Shown here one piece after another: positions 2,620-14,964 of a stretch of DNA of 64,000 bases. The notes beneath the pieces are model-generated. The model was not told where the DNA came from, did no database searches, and saw nothing but the letters and a program-made list of their open reading frames with translations. Source of the stretch: Pseudomonadota bacterium (lineage in GTDB: Bacteria; Pseudomonadota; Gammaproteobacteria; Competibacterales; Competibacteraceae); the NCBI GenBank assembly GCA_022709365.1, contig JAKLIY010000002.1, positions 1 to 64,000 of the forward strand. Direction: 5' to 3'. A program made the position numbers and the translations under genes. The first letter of the stretch is position 1. Each line of letters opens with the position of its first letter.

Positions 2620-3372
2620 ATGTATCGAACTCGCCTGTTATTGACCGCTCTCGGTTTGAGCAGTGGTCTCTTCATCGCCAGTTGCGCCAGTCAGCCGACG
2701 ACGGCGGAAGATTACCAGCCCTCCGGTTTTCTGAAAGATTATTCCCAGCTTAAGCCCGCGCCTGATGGCAGCGGCGCGCTGGTCTACCGCAAGCCCGGTT
2801 TGAATCTGAAGGAGTACAACAAAGTCATGCTGGACCCGATCAAGGTCTGGTATAGAAACGACGCCGAATACAAGGGCATCGATCCCAACGAACTTAAGAC
2901 GCTGACTGATTACTTCCAACAGGCGCTGGTCAAGGCGCTGGAGCCGGCCTACCCGCTGGTCAACAAGCCGGGACCCGGAGTCTTGCGGGTTCGGATCGCG
3001 GTGACTGAACTGAAGCCGACCAACACCGACATGAGCATAGTGACCCTGGTCGTGCCCTACGCTGCGGTCGCGGATGTTGCCTCGGGCGGCGGCACCGGGG
3101 GCGCTCCCTATCTGGGCGATGCCGCCATCGAGGTCGAGTTCCGCGACAGTCGCAGCAATGAACTGCTGGCGGCCTATGTGGACAAGCGCGTGGGCAAGAA
3201 ATACGACGTGGATTTGAGCCAGGGCGTCGGCGAGGCCGTGAGCAAGGGGGTAGATTCATATTCCAAGGCTTATTCCAGTTGGGGGTACGCCCAACAGGCT
3301 TTCAACTACTGGGCGCAGAAGCTGCGCCGTCGCCTGGATGAAGCGCATGGCGTGGTACCGCCCGCATCGTAA
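2620..3372 (+). CDS. DUF3313 family outer-membrane lipoprotein
   Basis: The N-terminal signal ends in the lipobox IASC with the lipidated cysteine at residue 22, so this is a lipoprotein. The mature region (GFLKDYSQLKPAPDGSGA, then VMLDPIKVWY and a glycine-rich stretch before YLGDAAIEVEFRDSRSNELL) is typical of DUF3313 proteins, which are widespread in Proteobacteria and have no settled biochemical role. The length of 250 aa fits the family. It directly precedes the RND efflux operon, but a 66-base gap and a separate start region do not prove a link. Confidence 0.85.
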   Translation: MYRTRLLLTALGLSSGLFIASCASQPTTAEDYQPSGFLKDYSQLKPAPDGSGALVYRKPGLNLKEYNKVMLDPIKVWYRNDAEYKGIDPNELKTLTDYFQQALVKALEPAYPLVNKPGPGVLRVRIAVTELKPTNTDMSIVTLVVPYAAVADVASGGGTGGAPYLGDAAIEVEFRDSRSNELLAAYVDKRVGKKYDVDLSQGVGEAVSKGVDSYSKAYSSWGYAQQAFNYWAQKLRRRLDEAHGVVPPAS

Positions 3373-3438: not shown

Positions 3439-4650
3439 GTGTATACGCCACACCGTTTGCAACAGCCGCTGAGCGCTCTATCCCGCGCCCTGGCGGCGCT
3501 AATCGTTTCGGGGTTCATCACGACCGCCGCGCTGGCGCAGCAACCCGCCGGTCAGGCCCGCCCCCCTACCCCCGTCACCGTGGTCGACATCAAACCGGAG
3601 AATACTCCGGCGACCTTCGAGTTCACCGGCAAGACCGCCAGTTCCCGACAAGTGCAAATCAACGCTCGGGTCGAAGGTTATCTCGACAAGATCGCCTATG
3701 TCGAAGGCAGCTTGGTGAAAACCGGGCAACTGCTGTTCCAGCTCGATCCCAAGCCCTTCCAGGCCGCGCTGGACAGCGCCAAGGCTACTCTCGCCCAGCA
3801 GGAAGCGTCGTTGACCCGGGCCCGCCAAACCTTGGCGCGGGTCAAGCCGCTGGCCAAGCAAAATGCGGTCAGCCAGCAGGATCTGGATAACTCCATCGCC
3901 GGCGAACTGACCGCGTTGGCCCAAGTGCAGGCGGCCAAGGCGCAGGTCGATACGGCGCAACTGAATCTGGGCTACACCACCATCAAATCGCCGCTCACTG
4001 GCCTGTCCAGCAGCGCCAATTTCCGCGAAGGCGCTCTGATCACGCCCGCCGGTAATAACAACCAGCTCACCACCATCGTGCAAATCGACCCGATGTGGGT
4101 CAACTTCGGGGTCGGCGAAAACGAAGTCCTGAAAATCCGCGATCAACAGGAAAAAGGACAGTTGAAGGGACCGGGACTGAGCAAGGTGCAAGTGGAACTG
4201 ATTCTGGCTGACGGATCGAGCTATCCGCAGAAGGGCCAGATCACGTTCGTGGATCCGATGGTGAACGCGCAAACTGGCACCTACAACATCCGCGCTGTCG
4301 TGCCTAACCCAAATAATCAGTTGAGTCCCGGTCAGTTCGTGCGGGTGCAACTCAAGGGCGCGGTTCGCCCCAACGCGATCATGGTGCCGCAAGTCGCGGT
4401 GATGCAGGGGCCGAGCGGCAAATTTGTGTTTGTGGTCGGCCCGGACAACACCGCCGTGCCCAAGCCGATTCAGGTCGGCGACTGGTACGGCGACCAGTGG
4501 ATCGTCAATTCCGGTCTGGAAACCGGCGACCGGGTGGTGGTGGACGGCGCGGTGCGGCTGCAACCCGGCGCACCGGTGCAGATTCGTCCGGCTGCGGCGC
4601 CTGCGCCCGAGCCGGCGAAAGTCCCCAGCGCCACGCTGCTCAAACCCTGA
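3439..4650 (+). CDS. RND efflux periplasmic adaptor (membrane fusion protein)
   Basis: AcrA/MexA-type adaptor: signal peptide (about residues 1-33, ending AALAQ), lipoyl half-motifs around VEGYLDKIAYVEGSLVKTGQ, a coiled-coil hairpin (AKATLAQQEASLTRARQTL), then beta-barrel and membrane-proximal domains. It bridges the inner-membrane pump and outer-membrane channel encoded next. The GTG at 3439 is preferred because TTGAGG lies 8 bases upstream and the signal peptide follows directly; a TTG at 3388 would add 17 poorly signal-like residues. There is no lipobox, so it is probably a soluble or N-terminally anchored adaptor. It is followed 11 bases later by the pump gene. Confidence 0.92.
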   Translation: MYTPHRLQQPLSALSRALAALIVSGFITTAALAQQPAGQARPPTPVTVVDIKPENTPATFEFTGKTASSRQVQINARVEGYLDKIAYVEGSLVKTGQLLFQLDPKPFQAALDSAKATLAQQEASLTRARQTLARVKPLAKQNAVSQQDLDNSIAGELTALAQVQAAKAQVDTAQLNLGYTTIKSPLTGLSSSANFREGALITPAGNNNQLTTIVQIDPMWVNFGVGENEVLKIRDQQEKGQLKGPGLSKVQVELILADGSSYPQKGQITFVDPMVNAQTGTYNIRAVVPNPNNQLSPGQFVRVQLKGAVRPNAIMVPQVAVMQGPSGKFVFVVGPDNTAVPKPIQVGDWYGDQWIVNSGLETGDRVVVDGAVRLQPGAPVQIRPAAAPAPEPAKVPSATLLKP

Positions 4651-4661
4651 GAGGGCGCCCG

Positions 4662-7600
4662 ATGATCTCCCATTTCTTTATTGACCGCCCGGTCTTTGCG
4701 GCGGTCATTTCCATCATCCTGACCCTGGCCGGGCTGTCGGCGATGGGCGTGCTGCCGATCGCCCAGTACCCCAACATCACGCCGGTGCAGGTGCAGGTGA
4801 GCGCCACTTATCCCGGCGCCAGCGCCGATGTGGTGTCGCAAAGCGTGGCCGCGCCCATCGAGCAGCAGGTCAACAGCGTGAACAACCTGATGTACATGTA
4901 CTCGTCGAGTTCTTCGACCGGCAACATGAATCTGAACGTGTTCTTCAACATTGGCACCGATCCCGACATCGCCCAGGTCAACGTGCAGAATCAGGTGAGT
5001 CTGGCCTTGCCGCAGTTGCCGTCGGAGGTGTCCAAACAGGGGGTGCAGGTCCAGACCAAATCGTCCACCTTCCTGATGGTGATCGCGATCTATTCGCCGG
5101 ACGGGAGCCAAGACGAAACCTTTGTTGGCAACTACGCCTACCTGTACGTGCTCAACGCCCTGCAACGGATTCCCGGCGCCAATCAGGCCGGGATTTTCGG
5201 GGTGCCCAACTATGCGATGCGGATTTGGTTGAAACCGGACCGGATGAGCGAGCTGGGCTTGACCACTGATGAAGTGATCAACGCCATCCAGACCCAGAAC
5301 CAGCAGTTCGCCATCGGCCAAATCGGCCAGTCACCGACCAACGGGCCGGTGGAACTGACCTTTCCGGTCTCCACCCAGGGTCGACTGACCACGCCTGAGG
5401 AGTTCGAGAACATCATCCTGCGCGCCAGTTCCACCGGTGCCGGCGTGTTGCGGCTCAAGGATGTCGGCTACGTGACCCTGGGGATGCAAAGCTATAACCT
5501 GCGCAGCCGCTTCAATGGCAAGATCGGCACCGCCATCGCGGTATACCAGCAGGCAGGGGCCAATGCCTTGGATGTGTCCAAGCAGGTGCGAGAGACGCTG
5601 GAAGAACTGAAGAAAAGCTTCCCGGCCGGACTCGACTACTCCATCGCCCTGGATACCACCAAGTTCGTGAAAGCCTCGATTGACGAGGTTGTGAAGACCC
5701 TGATGGAAGCCATCGTGCTGGTCATCCTGGTAGTGTTCATCTTTCTCCAAAGCTGGCGGGCCACCGTCATTCCCATCGTGGCGGTGATCGTCTCGGTGAT
5801 CGCCACCTTCAGCGGGATGTACCTGCTGGGCTTCTCAATCAACATGCTGACCCTGTTCGGCATGGTGCTGTGCATCGGCATCGTGGTGGACGACGCCATC
5901 GTGGTGGTAGAGAACGTCGAGCGCAACATGGCGGAATTTCATCTCTCGCCCAAGGAAGCGGCGCATCGGGCGATGGAGGAAGTGACCGGTCCGGTCATCG
6001 CGGTGGTGCTGGTGCTGGGCGCAGTATTCGTGCCGGTCGCGTTCCTGGGTGGCATGACCGGGCAGTTGTACAAGCAGTTCGCCATCACCATTGCGATCTC
6101 AGTGGCAATTTCCGGCCTGGTGGCGTTGACCCTGAGTCCGGCGTTAGCAGCGCTGTTGCTTAAGCCGGGCGAACACGGCGACCAGCGCACCGATTTTCTC
6201 TACCGATTCTTCTTCGGCCCCTTCAATCGCGGCTTCGACTGGATGACCCGTGGCTACGCCGAAAGCGTGCGTTTTATCACCAAGCGGGTGCTGCTGGGGT
6301 TGACGCTGTTCGCGGTGATGCTGGTGGCGATTTACGGCTTGTTCAACAAAGTGCCGAGCAGCTTCGTGCCGGATGAAGACCAGGGCTATGTCTTCGGCGT
6401 GGGCATCCTGCCTGACGGCGCCAGTCTGGATCGGACTGAAGCAGCGGGTGCTCAGATGAGCGATATCTTCCGTGCTAATTCCGCAGTCGGCAGCGTGGTC
6501 GCGGTCAACGGCTACAGCCTGCTGGATTCGCAGATGAAGACCACCGAAACCACCTTGTTCGTGTCGTTCAAGGACTACGAGGAGCGGAAAGATCCCAAAG
6601 AGAGCGCCCCCAATGTCATCCGCGAAATCATGGGCAAATTCGCCGGCATTGGCGAAGCCATCGCCCTGGTGTTCAACCCGCCGTCGATTCCCGGTCTCGG
6701 CACCACTGGCGGATTCGAGTTCTGGATTCAGAGTCGCGGCGGCAGCGACATCAAGCAACTGGCGAAGGTGACCAAGGATTTCGTCGCCAAGGCCAATCAG
6801 CGCCCGGAGCTGCGCGGGTTGACGACCACCATCAATGCTGCCTCACAGCAGTTGTACGTGACCCTGGACCGCGAGCAGGCCAACACCCTGGGTGTGCCGG
6901 TCAATAACGTGTTCGGCACCCTGCAAGCCCTGTTCGGCTCGCTGTACGTCAGCCAGTTCAACCTGTATAGCCAGGTGTGGCAAGTGATCGTGCAGGCGGC
7001 CCCGGAATTCCGTTCCCGCCCGGAGGACATCAAGCAGATTTATGTGCGGTCCACCAATGGCGGCATGGTGCCGCTGGCGGCAGTGACCAAGCTCAACTAT
7101 ACCAGCGCCCCGAATCTGATCACCCGCTTTAACACCTTCCCGGCCGCCAAGGTGACCGGCGGTGCCGCGCCGGGCTACAGCTCCGGTCAGGCCCTCGCCA
7201 CCATGCAGGCGGTGGCCCGCGAGGTGTTGCCAGAGGGCTACTCCTTCGCCTGGAGCGGCCAAGCCTATCAGGAAATCAAAGTTGGCGGTGATTCGGCGAT
7301 GGTGTTTATCTACGGCCTGATCATGGTGTTCCTGATTCTGGCCGCCCAGTATGAAAAATGGTCGCTGCCGTTCAGCGTGTTGATGGCGGTGCCGTTCGGC
7401 ATCTTCGGAGCCTTGCTGGCGGTCTGGCTGCGCGGGATGGAAAACGATGTGTACTTCCAGATCGGCCTGCTGACCCTGGTCGGACTGGCGGCCAAGAACG
7501 CCATCCTGATCGTGGAATTCGCGGTGATGAAGCACGAGGAAGGAATGCCGGTGCTGGAAGCGGCAGTAGAAGCAGCGCGCTTGCGGTTCCGTCCGATCCT

Positions 7601-10273: not shown

Positions 10274-10654
10274 TTAACGATTGATCCAGCCGGTGCTGCC
10301 ACCGCGCCGGTTGACCCAACCGCCGCCGCCGGAACGATTCACCCAGCCACCGCCGCGATTCACCCAGCCACCGCCGGAACGATTGACCCAACCGCCGCCG
10401 CCGGAACGATTCACCCAACTACCGCCACGATTCACCCAGCCGCCGCCACTGCGATTGACCCAAGCAGCGGTGCCGCCCCCACGGCGATTGACCCAGCTGC
10501 TGGCTTGCGCCGACGGACTCATCACTCCGCCCAGCAGTACGCCGCCGATGACGGCTTGCGACCACTTGCCCAAGCCGCGCAGGAACGTGCGCCGTTGCTC
10601 CGCAACGGGTTCCTCAACCCACTCGGGATCTTTTACATCGTGTTGATCAGTCAT
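10274..10654 (-). CDS. Tat-signal, Trp-Val-Asn repeat RiPP precursor (GrrA-like, 126 aa)
   Basis: Residues 1-51 form a leader with a twin-arginine motif (RRTFLRG, 21-27), a hydrophobic stretch and a probable cleavage site after AQA (51). Residues 52-126 are almost only W-V-N-R units spaced by Gly/Ser: tryptophans at 54, 65, 73, 80, 89, 97, 104, 113 and 123, eight followed by VNR and the last by INR. Aromatic-X-Asn triplets in a Gly-rich repeat are the hallmark of GrrA-type substrates, in which radical SAM/SPASM enzymes link the aromatic ring to the third residue (three-residue cyclophane). The start at 10654 has GGGGAT upstream and lies 13 bases after the SnoaL-like gene, so the two are co-transcribed. 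The modification itself is inferred. An opposite-strand open frame here is only the mirror of the repeats. Confidence 0.85.
   Translation of the reverse strand: MTDQHDVKDPEWVEEPVAEQRRTFLRGLGKWSQAVIGGVLLGGVMSPSAQASSWVNRRGGGTAAWVNRSGGGWVNRGGSWVNRSGGGGWVNRSGGGWVNRGGGWVNRSGGGGWVNRRGGSTGWINR
10277..10495 (-). repeat. Tandem DNA repeats encoding the WVNR core units
   Basis: About 21-36-base imperfect direct repeats (plus-strand core CGATTCACCCA or CGATTGACCCA next to GCCGCCGCC) encode the nine W-x-N-R units. Near-identity between units suggests recent expansion and makes unit number prone to change by recombination. Confidence 0.85.
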
Positions 10655-10667
10655 AGTTGATCCCCGG

Positions 10668-11231
10668 TCATTGGGCTTTCGGAGCCGTTTCTGCGGCTGG
10701 CGGGGCATCTTTTGGAGACGGAACTTCATCCGGCGGAGGCATATCGCCACCGGTCAGGTTGGAAAAGTGCAAGGTTTGGAATTTCCAGCCCGCTTTCTCT
10801 TTCTTCAGCACGCCCGACACGTTGAGGAGGTATTCGCGCGTCTGTCCGTCCGGCGTGGCGTCCTGCATATTGCAGGAAGCGATCAGCCAAGCCACATCGC
10901 CATCATTTCCACTAGAGGCTTCCGGGCATTCATGCTTGAGGGTCCCAGCCTTGAAATCCTGGAAAAATTGCTTGTAGAACTCTTCAATTGCTGCCTTGCC
11001 TTTCCAGAATTCGCCAGGCCCCGTACCCATTAACACCACACCGGGGGCGTCGGCGTAAAACGTCATGAGGGCCTTGATATCCTGTGTGTTGATCGCTTCG
11101 TCGTGCTGGTTCAACACCGCCTTGAGTTCTTCTTTGAACTTGTCCGCATCCGTTGGTTGGGCAGCTAGCGCCGGCATCGACAAGACACAGCCCAGAGTTG
11201 CGGCCAGCCAAACGCTTTCTTGTTTCTTCAT
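10668..11231 (-). CDS. Exported SnoaL-like/DUF4440-type protein in the RiPP cluster
   Basis: The 187-aa protein has a signal peptide (about 1-24, ending PALAAQP). A SnoaL/DUF4440-like cone domain follows: HDEAINTQDIKALMTFYADA, then GEFWKGKAAIEEFYKQFF and a C-terminal strand WKFQTLHFSNLTG. A proline/alanine tail follows. The family includes small-molecule isomerases, hydratases and many non-enzymatic binding proteins. It sits between the radical SAM gene and the precursor, 13 bases from the latter, and like the precursor should leave the cytoplasm, so a role in binding or protecting the exported peptide is plausible but inferred. The start at 11231 is chosen because the signal peptide begins there; its ribosome binding site is weak. 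Confidence 0.8.
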   Translation of the reverse strand: MKKQESVWLAATLGCVLSMPALAAQPTDADKFKEELKAVLNQHDEAINTQDIKALMTFYADAPGVVLMGTGPGEFWKGKAAIEEFYKQFFQDFKAGTLKHECPEASSGNDGDVAWLIASCNMQDATPDGQTREYLLNVSGVLKKEKAGWKFQTLHFSNLTGGDMPPPDEVPSPKDAPPAAETAPKAQ

Positions 11232-11377
11232 GAGGATTCTCGCTTGTGATGTTGGATCGATAAATCCAAGTTCCAGTGAGGAGGGATAAAATCCCAACCA
11301 ACTGACGGGTTATTTTAGCTGAATAAAATCGGGAGTTCATGCAAAGACTTTGCGCGGCGGCTGAAAGGTGCATTGCT

Positions 11378-11391
11378 ATGCCACATGGCAT
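11378..11391 (+). repeat. Palindromic motif copy 2, upstream of the DUF4440-like gene
   Basis: ATGCCACATGGCAT, extended to TATGCCACATGGCATA, lies in the 187-base gap between the radical SAM gene end and the DUF4440-like gene start, both minus strand. It could be an operator for the latter two genes or a dispersed repeat. Confidence 0.65.
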
Positions 11392-11418
11392 ATTCCATCC
11401 GCCGCGCCGCCGTACCGA

Positions 11419-12567
11419 TCACGCCGCCACGCACTGCGTCGCGGTGGCCTCACGCGCCAGATCTCGCGCTGCGCGCTGCATCCGGCTGAACATCACCTTA
11501 TACAACTCGCAGTAGGGATCTTTCTCAAACAGCGAGCCATGGACGGTGTAGGTGCGCACCGGGCAACCGCCGTGGCATAGCGAGAGATAATCGCAGCTCA
11601 GGCAATCCCGCTGAATGAGCTGGATTGGTCGTTCATTGAACTGCTTGCGGGCCGGACTGTTACGCAGCAGTTCGCCGAAACTGTCGCACTCGAAAATATT
11701 GCCGTAGTGATAGTCGGGATAACTGGTCACCCAGCAATCGCATTGCGCGACATAGCCACGGGCGTCGATAGACACCAGCGCATTGGCGCAGTTGTCGCTC
11801 CAGATGCAGGGTAAAGTAGCCGGCTCATGGCTGAAATGCGCCAGTAGCGCATCGAGCGGCCCGACCCGAACGCCACGCGAGTAGCCGCGCTCCAGCCAGA
11901 CATCGGCCAGTTCGGTATAGAAGCGGCAGAGCGCCTCCACTTCGGCCACCGGCAGCGCCTTTTTGGCTGCCGTCGCTTCGCCGCCCGGAAAAGGCGTATT
12001 CACCTGAAAATCGGTAACGCCGAGTTCATCGACGAAGTGCGTATAGAAGCGCTCCGCGCCGATGTCCAAAGTGGCCTGATTGGGAACGGCGATGACCTGC
12101 ACGTCAATCCCGGCGGCCCGCGCTTCCTGCACCCGTTTCGTCCAGATGGCGTTGTAACTCTCCGGCCCCTGACCGAGCAATTTGCGGTGCAGATTGGGAT
12201 AGTCCAGCGAGGTGCCGATGGAGTTGCCGAACATCTCGGCGACCACCTTATTCCAGCGGGAACTGTAGGCCAGCATATTGCTTTGCAGGCTGTGGAAGAC
12301 CTGCTTGCCTCGCGCTTCGGCTTCACGCTGGATGAGTTCATGGGCCTGCTCATACCAACTGGGCGGCAACAACATTGCCTCGCCGCCCTGCCAGTAGAGG
12401 GTGAGCGACGCCAGCGACTTTTCGACCATATAATCCAGCACCTTGCAGATCATTTCCTTCAGTCGGTCGAGAGTGAGCCGATCGGTGGTTTTGTTCTCGA
12501 AGCAATACTCGCAATCCGCGTTGCATTGCAGGGTAGACAGCAGGACCAGCGAAAAATGACTTTTCAT
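11419..12567 (-). CDS. Radical SAM/SPASM peptide maturase (GrrM-like)
   Basis: The 382-aa protein carries the radical SAM cluster motif CNADCEYC (Cys15, Cys19, Cys22) almost at the N-terminus, a glycine-rich SAM-binding stretch (WQGGEA), and a C-terminal SPASM region with auxiliary-cluster cysteines, including CLSCDYLSLCHGGCP (322-336) and Cys353. This is the architecture of peptide-modifying enzymes such as GrrM and other three-residue-cyclophane-forming maturases. No separate RiPP recognition domain is visible. The adjacent WVN-repeat precursor is the obvious substrate. The start at 12567 is preferred over an upstream in-frame ATG because AAAGG precedes it and the motif spacing is normal. 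Exact subfamily (GrrM or an unnamed relative) is uncertain. Confidence 0.88.
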   Translation of the reverse strand: MKSHFSLVLLSTLQCNADCEYCFENKTTDRLTLDRLKEMICKVLDYMVEKSLASLTLYWQGGEAMLLPPSWYEQAHELIQREAEARGKQVFHSLQSNMLAYSSRWNKVVAEMFGNSIGTSLDYPNLHRKLLGQGPESYNAIWTKRVQEARAAGIDVQVIAVPNQATLDIGAERFYTHFVDELGVTDFQVNTPFPGGEATAAKKALPVAEVEALCRFYTELADVWLERGYSRGVRVGPLDALLAHFSHEPATLPCIWSDNCANALVSIDARGYVAQCDCWVTSYPDYHYGNIFECDSFGELLRNSPARKQFNERPIQLIQRDCLSCDYLSLCHGGCPVRTYTVHGSLFEKDPYCELYKVMFSRMQRAARDLAREATATQCVAA

Positions 12568-12607: not shown

Positions 12608-12661
12608 ATGACCTTCAATCTTCATTGTGAATGCAACCTGGTGCTTTTTGAGGATCCACTT

Positions 12662-13054
12662 ATGAAACTTCTGCTGAATGCTGCCTTAATCGCCACCCTC
12701 GGTTTGGGGGCTGCCGCTTGCACGGTCGTCACCGACCCCAGTTCCGCTTCCAGCGCGGGCAGTTCCGGCAGCACAACGTTCATGAACCGCCAGCAACAAA
12801 TCGCCGAGTTCGCCAACGTCAATCTGGACCGGATCAAGCAGGATATGTCTGCCGGCCAGGGTGAATATCTGGCCTCACTGGCGACCCTGCTCGGCGTCGA
12901 ATCCGGACACCAGCCGGAATTTTTCACGTTCACTCAAGCGAAATTTACCGTGCTGTTCCCCAGCGACCAGACCAGCGCCGCCGAAATGCTGGCGACGTTG
13001 AACCGGGAAATGCAGGCGGAACCCCGCTTTGGTCAGCGGCTGGCGTTGAACTGA
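12662..13054 (+). CDS. DUF3015-like small lipoprotein or exported protein
   Basis: The start at ATG 12662 has GAGGAT upstream and begins a signal sequence ending GLGAAAC, a weak lipobox with Cys20; longer upstream reading is unlikely. The C-terminal half (DMSAGQGEYLASLATLLGV, then TVLFPSDQTSAAEMLATLNRE) matches the conserved part of DUF3015 proteins, which in Pseudomonas-type genomes commonly neighbour a DUF4105 gene, as here. Function is unknown. It is divergent from the RiPP cluster and overlaps or abuts the following DUF4105 gene. Confidence 0.75.
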   Translation: MKLLLNAALIATLGLGAAACTVVTDPSSASSAGSSGSTTFMNRQQQIAEFANVNLDRIKQDMSAGQGEYLASLATLLGVESGHQPEFFTFTQAKFTVLFPSDQTSAAEMLATLNREMQAEPRFGQRLALN

Positions 13055-13098
13055 TTCTTCCGATTCTCCCGCTCATCGGCGTTCTGCTGCTGGGAACT

Positions 13099-14964
13099 TT
13101 GCTCCCTGCAACGAACGCCCGCGCTGATTCCGCCTATCTGGCCGAATTGCTGGCCCGTGCTGACACCGCTGATCTGGCGGCACGGCGCGAGTGGCCAGCG
13201 CTGTTGCATTACCGACTGAATGCCCAAGGCGTCGTCAGCGACGCCGACGATCCGCGCTTTTTCCTCTCCCCAATCGGCAAGACCGATCCAGAAGCGGAAT
13301 TGGCGGCGACGCTGCGCGCTTTTTTCACCGACGAGCCGGTCGGCGGCGATCCCCAACCCGCCCAATGCGCCTTCATCGCCCGTTACCGCTGGTTGAAAGC
13401 GGAACTGGACTTCGATGACCGCCGCCTGCCCCCGCAGACCTGCGAGCGTTTCCAGCACTGGTTCCGGGAACTGAACGCCGAAGCAGCCACCCTCATTTTT
13501 GCCTCGGCCTATCTCAATAATCCCGCCTCGCTGTTCGGCCATACCCTGCTGCGGCTGGATCAGCGCGGCCAGACCGAACAAACCCGGCTGTTGGCCTATA
13601 CGATCAACTACGCCGCTGACGATTCCGACAGCAACGTCCTGATGTACGCTATAGACGGCATCGCTGGAGGATTCAAGGGCCGCTTCGACATCCAGCCGTA
13701 TTACAAGCTGGTGCGCACCTACAGCGATCTGGAAAGCCGCGATCTCTGGGAATATCGGCTGAATCTGCGCCCGCCACAACTGCAACGGCTCATCGAACAC
13801 CTCTGGGAATTGCGCGGCATCGAATTTGACTATTACTTTTTCCGGGAGAACTGCGCTTGGCAATTGCTGACTCTGCTGGAAGCCGCCGATCCAGACTTGC
13901 GGTTGAGCGATGCTTTTACGCTATGGACGCTGCCGGCGGACACGATCCGCCAGATGGTCGAACAACCGGGGTTGGTCGGTGAAGCGGTCGCCCGGCCAGC
14001 GCGTGGTACGGTTATTCAGCGTCGTTACCCGGCATTGACGGCCAGCGAACAATCGTTGGCGCGGCGGTTGTGGCAGGATCCCGATCTGGCCGCTGCGCCG
14101 GAATTGACCCGACTGGCTCCAGAACGACAAGCTTTATTACTGGAACTGGCCCTGGATCAGCGCCAGTATCAGCGGACTAGCCACGGTGCAAAGGGCGTCG
14201 ATCCGCCGCCGGATGCTGGCGCGCATCGCCTGTTGACCGCTCGTCAGGCGTTAACCGTTCCTGCCGCGCCGGTCGCGATTGAACCCTTCGCGACCCGCCC
14301 GGAAACCGGTCATGCCTCGCGACGACTGGGCATCGGGCTGGGCCAGCGGGACGGCGCGGCATTCGTGGAGTTGAACGCACGGGCCAGTTATCACGATCTG
14401 CTGGAACCCGATGCGGGTTACACCCCGGACGCCCAGATTGAGCTGTTGAGCGTCGCGGTGCGTCATGACCCAGAGCGCGGCGGGTTGACGCTGGATCGGC
14501 TGACAGTACTCGATATCACCTCGCTGCCGCCCTGCAATGCGCTGACGCCGCGCTCGGCCTGGTGGATTCACGCCGGTTGGGAACCTATTCCACGTTCGGA
14601 TGATCCGAATCGCACCGCCTTCAATCTCAGCGGTGGGCTGGGGCTGGCGGCGGAAACGACCTGGCCCTGGCGGACCGTGTGGTTCGGCTGGCCGGGACTG
14701 GAACTGGATTACGGCGCAGAGTTGGCCGATGATCACCGCGCCGGGCCGAGCCTGACCGCCGGAGTGTTGTTGCAACCGACCGCCGCTTGGAAAGTGCTGG
14801 CCAGCGCAACCTGGCTGGACTATCGGAGCGGCGAGCAGGATGCCGGGCTGCGAGCGGTCATCACGCAGAACCTGGCGCTGGAGCAGCATTTATCGTTGCG
14901 CGTAGACGGGCGCTACTGGAAGGGCGTCGCCGAATTCAGCCTGGGACTGCAAACCTATTTCTGA
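13099..14964 (+). CDS. DUF4105 family exported or membrane protein
   Basis: A large conserved gammaproteobacterial protein with the family motif NNPASLFGHTLLRLD and later YYFFRENCAWQLLTLLEAAD, a region proposed to resemble papain-like/NlpC peptidase folds. The C-terminal third is beta-rich and ends LGLQTYF, like an outer-membrane protein. The first standard start is TTG 13099, but the same frame is open upstream to 12865 and encodes a perfect hydrophobic signal core before ATNARADS, with no ATG, GTG or TTG available. Translation probably starts at a CTG or ATT overlapping the previous stop (13051-13056), coupled to DUF3015; otherwise a sequence error has removed the start. Confidence 0.8.
   Translation: MLPATNARADSAYLAELLARADTADLAARREWPALLHYRLNAQGVVSDADDPRFFLSPIGKTDPEAELAATLRAFFTDEPVGGDPQPAQCAFIARYRWLKAELDFDDRRLPPQTCERFQHWFRELNAEAATLIFASAYLNNPASLFGHTLLRLDQRGQTEQTRLLAYTINYAADDSDSNVLMYAIDGIAGGFKGRFDIQPYYKLVRTYSDLESRDLWEYRLNLRPPQLQRLIEHLWELRGIEFDYYFFRENCAWQLLTLLEAADPDLRLSDAFTLWTLPADTIRQMVEQPGLVGEAVARPARGTVIQRRYPALTASEQSLARRLWQDPDLAAAPELTRLAPERQALLLELALDQRQYQRTSHGAKGVDPPPDAGAHRLLTARQALTVPAAPVAIEPFATRPETGHASRRLGIGLGQRDGAAFVELNARASYHDLLEPDAGYTPDAQIELLSVAVRHDPERGGLTLDRLTVLDITSLPPCNALTPRSAWWIHAGWEPIPRSDDPNRTAFNLSGGLGLAAETTWPWRTVWFGWPGLELDYGAELADDHRAGPSLTAGVLLQPTAAWKVLASATWLDYRSGEQDAGLRAVITQNLALEQHLSLRVDGRYWKGVAEFSLGLQTYF

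Follow-up and report, generated by a model that had tools for sequence, protein, structure and literature searches.

A predicted radical SAM/SPASM system for W-x-N repeat peptides with a Tat-type leader in Competibacteraceae

Results and Discussion

A candidate system for exported, cross-linked repeat peptides

In the genome (4.16 Mb) of a Competibacteraceae-type gammaproteobacterium, we identified a gene set that we interpret, with a probability of about two in three, as a RiPP system for exported poly-cyclophane peptides, made with the participation of a SPASM-like partner, a Tat leader and a SnoaL-like protein. This interpretation is suggested by the gene set itself, a leader conserved among precursors, a constraint on W-x-N triplets in their cores and the co-occurrence of leader and partner. 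The window, i.e., the whole stretch of 64,000 nucleotides that was analyzed (G000:C54:1-64000), contains the following features:

11419..12567, minus strand: radical SAM/SPASM maturase, 382 aa, with the motif CNADCEYC and a SPASM C-terminus
10668..11231, minus strand: exported SnoaL-like protein (SnoaL_3/NTF2 fold, PF13474), 187 aa, predicted periplasmic accessory
10274..10654, minus strand: precursor peptide gene, 126 aa
10502..10654, minus strand: leader, residues 1-51, Tat-type signal RRTFLRGLGKWSQAVIGGVLLGG...AQA, conserved across the family
10277..10501, minus strand: core, residues 52-126, with nine W-[VI]-N-R units and Gly/Ser spacers, predicted cyclophane sites

A preliminary description had reported this minus-strand trio (radical SAM/SPASM enzyme, exported SnoaL-like or DUF4440-like protein and 126-aa precursor) and nine W-V/I-N-R units in the precursor. 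All three genes were found as described, and we counted eight WVN and one WIN. The precursor gene follows the SnoaL-like gene after 13 bp. Divergent from the maturase, a DUF3015 protein and then a 621-aa ORF (DUF4105-like by eye) are encoded at 12659-14964 on the plus strand, and this pair keeps the same position in ~20 Competibacteraceae loci.

In the proposed pathway, the leader-core precursor would be translated in the cytoplasm, and the SPASM maturase and a partner of ~270 aa would cross-link each Trp indole to the beta-carbon of the Asn at +2, so that the window peptide could carry as many as nine cross-links (-2 Da each). The leader would double as a modification mark (through its LGKWS block) and a twin-arginine signal, such that the stiffened, modified peptide would leave through Tat and be cleaved by signal peptidase after A-x-A. 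The exported SnoaL-like protein may then bind or process the Gly-rich cross-linked polypeptide in the periplasm.

The W-x-N repeat core

The window core has nine W-x-N units, whereas 20,000 shuffles averaged 1.04 and never gave more than 5. Codons vary among the units (GTC or GTG for Val, AAT or AAC for Asn, and CGC, CGT or CGG for Arg), as do the spacers, and the codon differences indicate that the repeat is not a recent DNA duplication. Both chance and such a duplication were ruled out as its origin by the shuffles, the codon variation and conservation across phyla.

We collected 73 distinct precursors with the common leader, 70 of which have Trp cores. Among the 698 core Trp of these 70 precursors, 559 are in W-x-N (in shuffled cores, 87 on average and never more than 112) and 34 have Asp at +2, which, with Gly, is the main replacement for Asn. 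The middle residue may be Y, G, V, I, A, H, N, F or others, and Arg occupies +3 in 60% of Trp units. This variability of the middle residue and of Arg fits three-residue cyclophanes from Trp to Asn, which is our best inference for the chemistry. A precedent is OscB, a GrrM-type enzyme that bonds Trp C7 to the beta-carbon of Asn or Asp (review PMC11002830); its Trp-Asn and Trp-Asp cyclophanes match the N/D tolerance observed here. On the other hand, some Trp in partner-linked precursors lie outside W-x-N, in W-G-G or W-G-W, and this counts against our interpretation.

It is also conceivable, if rather improbable, that the SPASM enzyme modifies W-x-N otherwise, for example through Trp-Arg bonds, i to i+3 bonds, beta-modification of Asn or Tyr/His-x-Arg bonds in W-Y-N-R. 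The frequent Arg would agree with this, as would the presence of Tyr or His at x in many Competibacteraceae cores, and the dynobactin and darobactin maturases, whose products carry other Trp bonds, are among the closest scored families. However, all 11 core Trp of locus L145 are in W-x-N and only 3 are followed by Arg; retention of the triplet where Arg is mostly lost indicates that the constrained pair is Trp plus Asn. In addition, the x position frequently holds Ala, Gly, Val or Ile, and the substitution of Asp for Asn parallels the OscB products. Comparative data strongly support the earlier reading of a RiPP precursor and its maturase, with W-x-N as the modified triplet. Three features had escaped the preliminary description: the leader of the Tat type, the partner, and the dispersal of precursors.

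A divergent Competibacteraceae precursor (L150, L151, L155) has the core NWNDCP...HWLNSSGSGG...TWVNY, in which Gly spacers are few and two Cys look conserved.

The maturase

The maturase scored above the cut-off of no curated subfamily, and all equivalog-level scores were far below. The best was that of the anaerobic sulfatase maturase profile TIGR03942 (143 bits, cut-off 349), followed by profiles for the dynobactin maturase (NF041298, 132 bits, cut-off 450), a darobactin-type maturase (115 bits), the darobactin maturase (NF038005, 92 bits, cut-off 650) and GrrM (TIGR04261, 85.4 bits, cut-off 310). Homologs are 80-89% identical to the window maturase in Competibacteraceae and 54-68% in Geobacter and Methylococcaceae. 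In 28 aligned homologs (54-89% identical), the CxxxCxxC cysteines, GGE and the SPASM auxiliary cysteines are invariant. The complete anSME-type AuxI/AuxII cysteine set is kept and includes the segment C276-D277-C278-W279, in which Asp277 adjoins Cys276 as in anSME, and Cys278-Trp279 is extra and invariant. An AlphaFold model (pLDDT 78.5) gave TM scores of 0.70 to anSME and 0.69 to the multiple cyclophane synthase ChlB. In a small tree, whose deeper nodes were weakly supported, the maturase formed its own fully supported clade. Judged by these sequence comparisons, it is a new subfamily of radical SAM/SPASM enzymes.

The assignment of the maturase to the GrrM type in the preliminary description finds no support. 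Besides the TIGR04261 score, the window precursor reached 18.6 bits with the GrrA/OscA1 profile TIGR04260 (cut-off 31; other members 15.7-16.3 or none), and the maturase branched apart from GrrM in the tree. It also retains the AuxI cysteines, which are lost in the one genuine GrrM of this survey (381 bits), at locus L159. Scores and cysteine pattern rule out GrrM membership. The maturase does not fall in a known non-peptide-modifying clade either, an outcome that had been named beforehand as speaking against its proposed role. Locus L159 (G070), from another class of Pseudomonadota, encodes GrrM at 1462-2661 and, at 1171-1455, a 94-aa precursor ending in F-P-N repeats, which TIGR04260 fails to recognize.

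The TIGR03942 match, the retention of Asp277 beside Cys276 and the presence of Ser in most cores raise the question of whether the maturase is a relative of anaerobic sulfatase maturases that converts Ser to formylglycine, or has another protein as its substrate, with the Gly-rich protein being an ordinary secreted structural protein. We regard this as very improbable. The score is far below the cut-off, Cys is absent from 66 of the 70 cores and Ser from three, and the position of Ser within the unit is not fixed. Moreover, a separate true anSME (486 bits) is encoded beside the maturase in a Geobacter locus, and linkage of the maturase to precursor and partner is too consistent for such a function. 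Sulfatase maturation itself was rejected on the basis of scores and substrate.

Maturases 86-88% identical to that of the window, with the same neighbors, were found in records named Phycisphaerales and Synechococcaceae (L005, L015), which are probably misnamed or contaminated MAGs. The window genome also encodes a second SPASM-type radical SAM protein (L162, G000:C85:17174-18238) with no more than distant similarity to the window maturase or GrrM.

Leader and export

The 73 leaders follow the pattern RRxFLxxLGKWS...AxA. RR was not required in the search and yet occurs in all 73, at positions -10 and -9 relative to the Trp of KWS. It is followed by F (93%) and L (97%); K/R-W-S comes next, then a stretch of Gly, Ala, Val and Leu that carries no charge and, in most leaders, A-x-A. 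RR-x-F-L followed by an uncharged h-region and A-x-A is the textbook layout of Tat substrates; here, RR-x-F-L, a weakly hydrophobic h-region and an A-x-A site are all present, and TatC is encoded in the window genome. No curated Tat profile in Pfam or NCBIfam matches the window precursor, so its Tat export is a prediction; L147 showed a weak TIGR02811 trace. When 316 Gammaproteobacteria genomes were searched with a model of the leader, matches occurred in three, all Competibacteraceae, and only to the W-x-N precursor family. The leader thus appears far more specific than Tat signals need to be, and we read LGKWS as a recognition block.

The same specificity, with conservation far beyond that of ordinary Tat signals, and the lack of a match of the window precursor to curated Tat profiles would also agree with a leader that is not a Tat signal, in which RR and KWS serve as recognition residues for maturase or partner and export occurs by Sec or not at all. 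We consider this unlikely in view of the Tat layout, of a copy of the leader in G535 that ends in a lipobox-like AGC, and of the neighboring SnoaL protein, which looks exported too.

No transporter or peptidase gene was detected among the recurrent neighbors of the precursors, which fits leader-borne export. If a Tat signal is indeed used, Tat would be an export route for RiPPs whose clusters lack a transporter and peptidase, and such export would test whether radical cross-linking counts as folding. In open-licence papers, we found none that combined twin-arginine signals with radical SAM RiPPs; the Tat-signal matches were unrelated.

The SnoaL-like protein and a SPASM-like partner

The SnoaL-like protein matches PF13474 with 61.9 bits (cut-off 22) and has, by eye, a Sec-type signal. 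Its homologs lie directly upstream of 27 of the 73 precursors, which bears out the SnoaL-like partner of the preliminary description as a genuine, recurrent part of the system.

The second accessory is a protein of ~270 aa that lacks the radical SAM cysteines; a SPASM-like Cys motif (C-x2-C-x5-C...C) is invariant at its C-terminus. This partner is encoded directly downstream of 29 of the 73 precursors and, as a protein of 273-292 aa in Geobacter (L027, L028) and Methylococcaceae (L026), directly upstream of the maturase. Of 39 Competibacteraceae genomes, 29 encode it, usually beside a precursor of its own on a different contig; in the window genome it is located at G000:C53 72128-72934. Independent searches with the leader and with the partner retrieved the same four genomes of ~336-340 in the Geobacter phylum (P = 1e-8). 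In a further leader-bearing genome, G575, the precursor lies where a contig ends. These patterns indicate that the partner belongs to the W-x-N precursor system, with a role in modification that we infer. The partner matched no Pfam or NCBIfam family, and a profile search of the PDB gave nothing meaningful. Profile comparison with hhalign gave only a weak alignment (34% probability) between its end and that of the maturase, the SPASM end, and no more than a 16-bit trace linked it to the HxsC C-terminus. Its AlphaFold model (pLDDT 47) had no confident fold, which counts against our interpretation. Among accessories of radical SAM peptide enzymes, the partner is a new candidate.

Operon organization and distribution

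An intact operon in the order SnoaL-precursor-partner-maturase was observed at L145, L028 and L026 (Desulfobacterota, Geobacter, Methylococcaceae). In G001, which belongs to the same family as the window genome, the order is precursor-partner-maturase, cut off by the end of the contig. Overall, 60 of the 73 precursors have a gene for maturase, SnoaL or partner as an immediate neighbor, the maturase being upstream in 10. Precursors were detected in 30 of the 39 Competibacteraceae genomes, generally 2-6 per genome and dispersed; the window genome has two more (G000:C52, G000:C53). In most Competibacteraceae the operon is split, and the window locus is one fragment of it.

Eight loci (L003, L004, L009, L010, L012, L019, L023 and L024) have no local precursor, and we considered that their maturases might be orphan enzymes. 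This was rejected after whole-genome searches, which placed precursors and partner usually on other contigs. Most maturase homologs have a linked or in-genome precursor, so the lack of a linked W-x-N precursor, which had been put forward as an argument against the system, does not apply to them. In four Competibacteraceae MAGs (G002, G006, G009, G025), precursor and partner were present and the maturase was not found, which counts against our interpretation; incompleteness is a possible reason, yet one of these MAGs is rated 99% complete.

The system was found only in the window genome in a sample of 399 Pseudomonadota genomes, and only in the starting genome in a sample of 297 genomes around an Acidobacteria match. 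It is rare outside Competibacteraceae, and appears to occur in Competibacter-group sludge bacteria plus a few distant relatives. The hosts are members of a bacterial group that accumulates glycogen in wastewater plants, and one may speculate that long exported peptides with cross-links could be important to the floc matrix or the cell envelope. Among open-licence papers, none linked Competibacter to glycine-rich peptides.

Comparison with known systems

In the known triceptide systems (XncB, OscB/GrrM, MscB, YxdB, HaaB, YhhB, ChlB), as here, a SPASM enzyme is encoded beside a precursor with aromatic-x-Asn/Asp motifs, often repeated. Of the features that define triceptides, a ribosomal precursor, a leader, aromatic-x-Asn/Asp triplets and a linked SPASM enzyme are recognizable in our system, whereas the C-C bond from the aromatic ring to the beta-carbon of residue i+2 is a prediction. 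The system differs from the known ones in the Tat-type leader, the pseudo-SPASM partner, the exported SnoaL protein and the dispersal of several precursors over each genome. Motifs of the type aromatic-Asn or aromatic-x-Asn are mentioned in PMC9062424 for clusters 19 and 63 of a SPASM network.

GrrM/GrrA (TIGR04261/TIGR04260) share with our system the Gly-rich repetitive core, aromatic-x-Asn and an exported-looking precursor. The anSME enzymes (PDB 4k36-4k39) are the best match in both sequence and fold, with cluster cysteines and Asp277 in common, whereas Cys278-Trp279 and precursors without sulfatase-type Cys set our system apart. The dynobactin and darobactin maturases, the second-best profile group, also have products with Trp cross-links, but these are small antibiotics, in contrast to the long repeat peptides predicted here. 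A peptide-modifying SPASM enzyme with a second SPASM-type protein is also found in the His-Xaa-Ser pair HxsB/HxsC and with the GeoRSP SPASM-only protein (TIGR03977, TIGR04304); our partner differs in that it lacks radical SAM cysteines and matches no curated family. By its sequence features, the system is triceptide-like in its likely action and a member of no tested curated maturase subfamily. As far as the open-licence literature shows, novelty lies in the maturase subfamily, in a leader of the Tat type, in two partners (the SPASM-like protein and the exported SnoaL protein) and in the precursor dispersal, and no public protein family describes leader, partner and exported SnoaL as a set.

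The same leader on other cores

Two genomes of the Desulfobacterota phylum, G752 and G535, carry the leader on other types of core, and leader and core thus look modular. We tentatively propose, at somewhat less than even odds, a modular family of Tat-exported RiPPs, in which the leader would act as modification tag and twin-arginine signal, an undescribed SPASM-like partner would be shared, and unrelated cores (W-x-N Gly-rich, Arg-Cys and Tyr-rich) would yield long poly-cross-linked periplasmic polypeptides and not small secreted antibiotics. One leader on three unrelated cores would also be a natural set for repeat-peptide engineering. In G752:C6 (L147), two same-leader precursors (2435-2710 and about 2998-3330) have cores of Arg-Cys and Trp-Arg-Cys repeats, and their neighbors are a different SPASM enzyme (3574-4710) and the partner (5855-6670, minus strand). 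In G535, the leaders of two precursors, L197 (G535:C4, 5833-6129) and L194 (2220-2546), end in the lipobox-like AGC and are followed by Tyr-rich cores; the SPASM enzyme and partner of this genome are located on another contig (L148).
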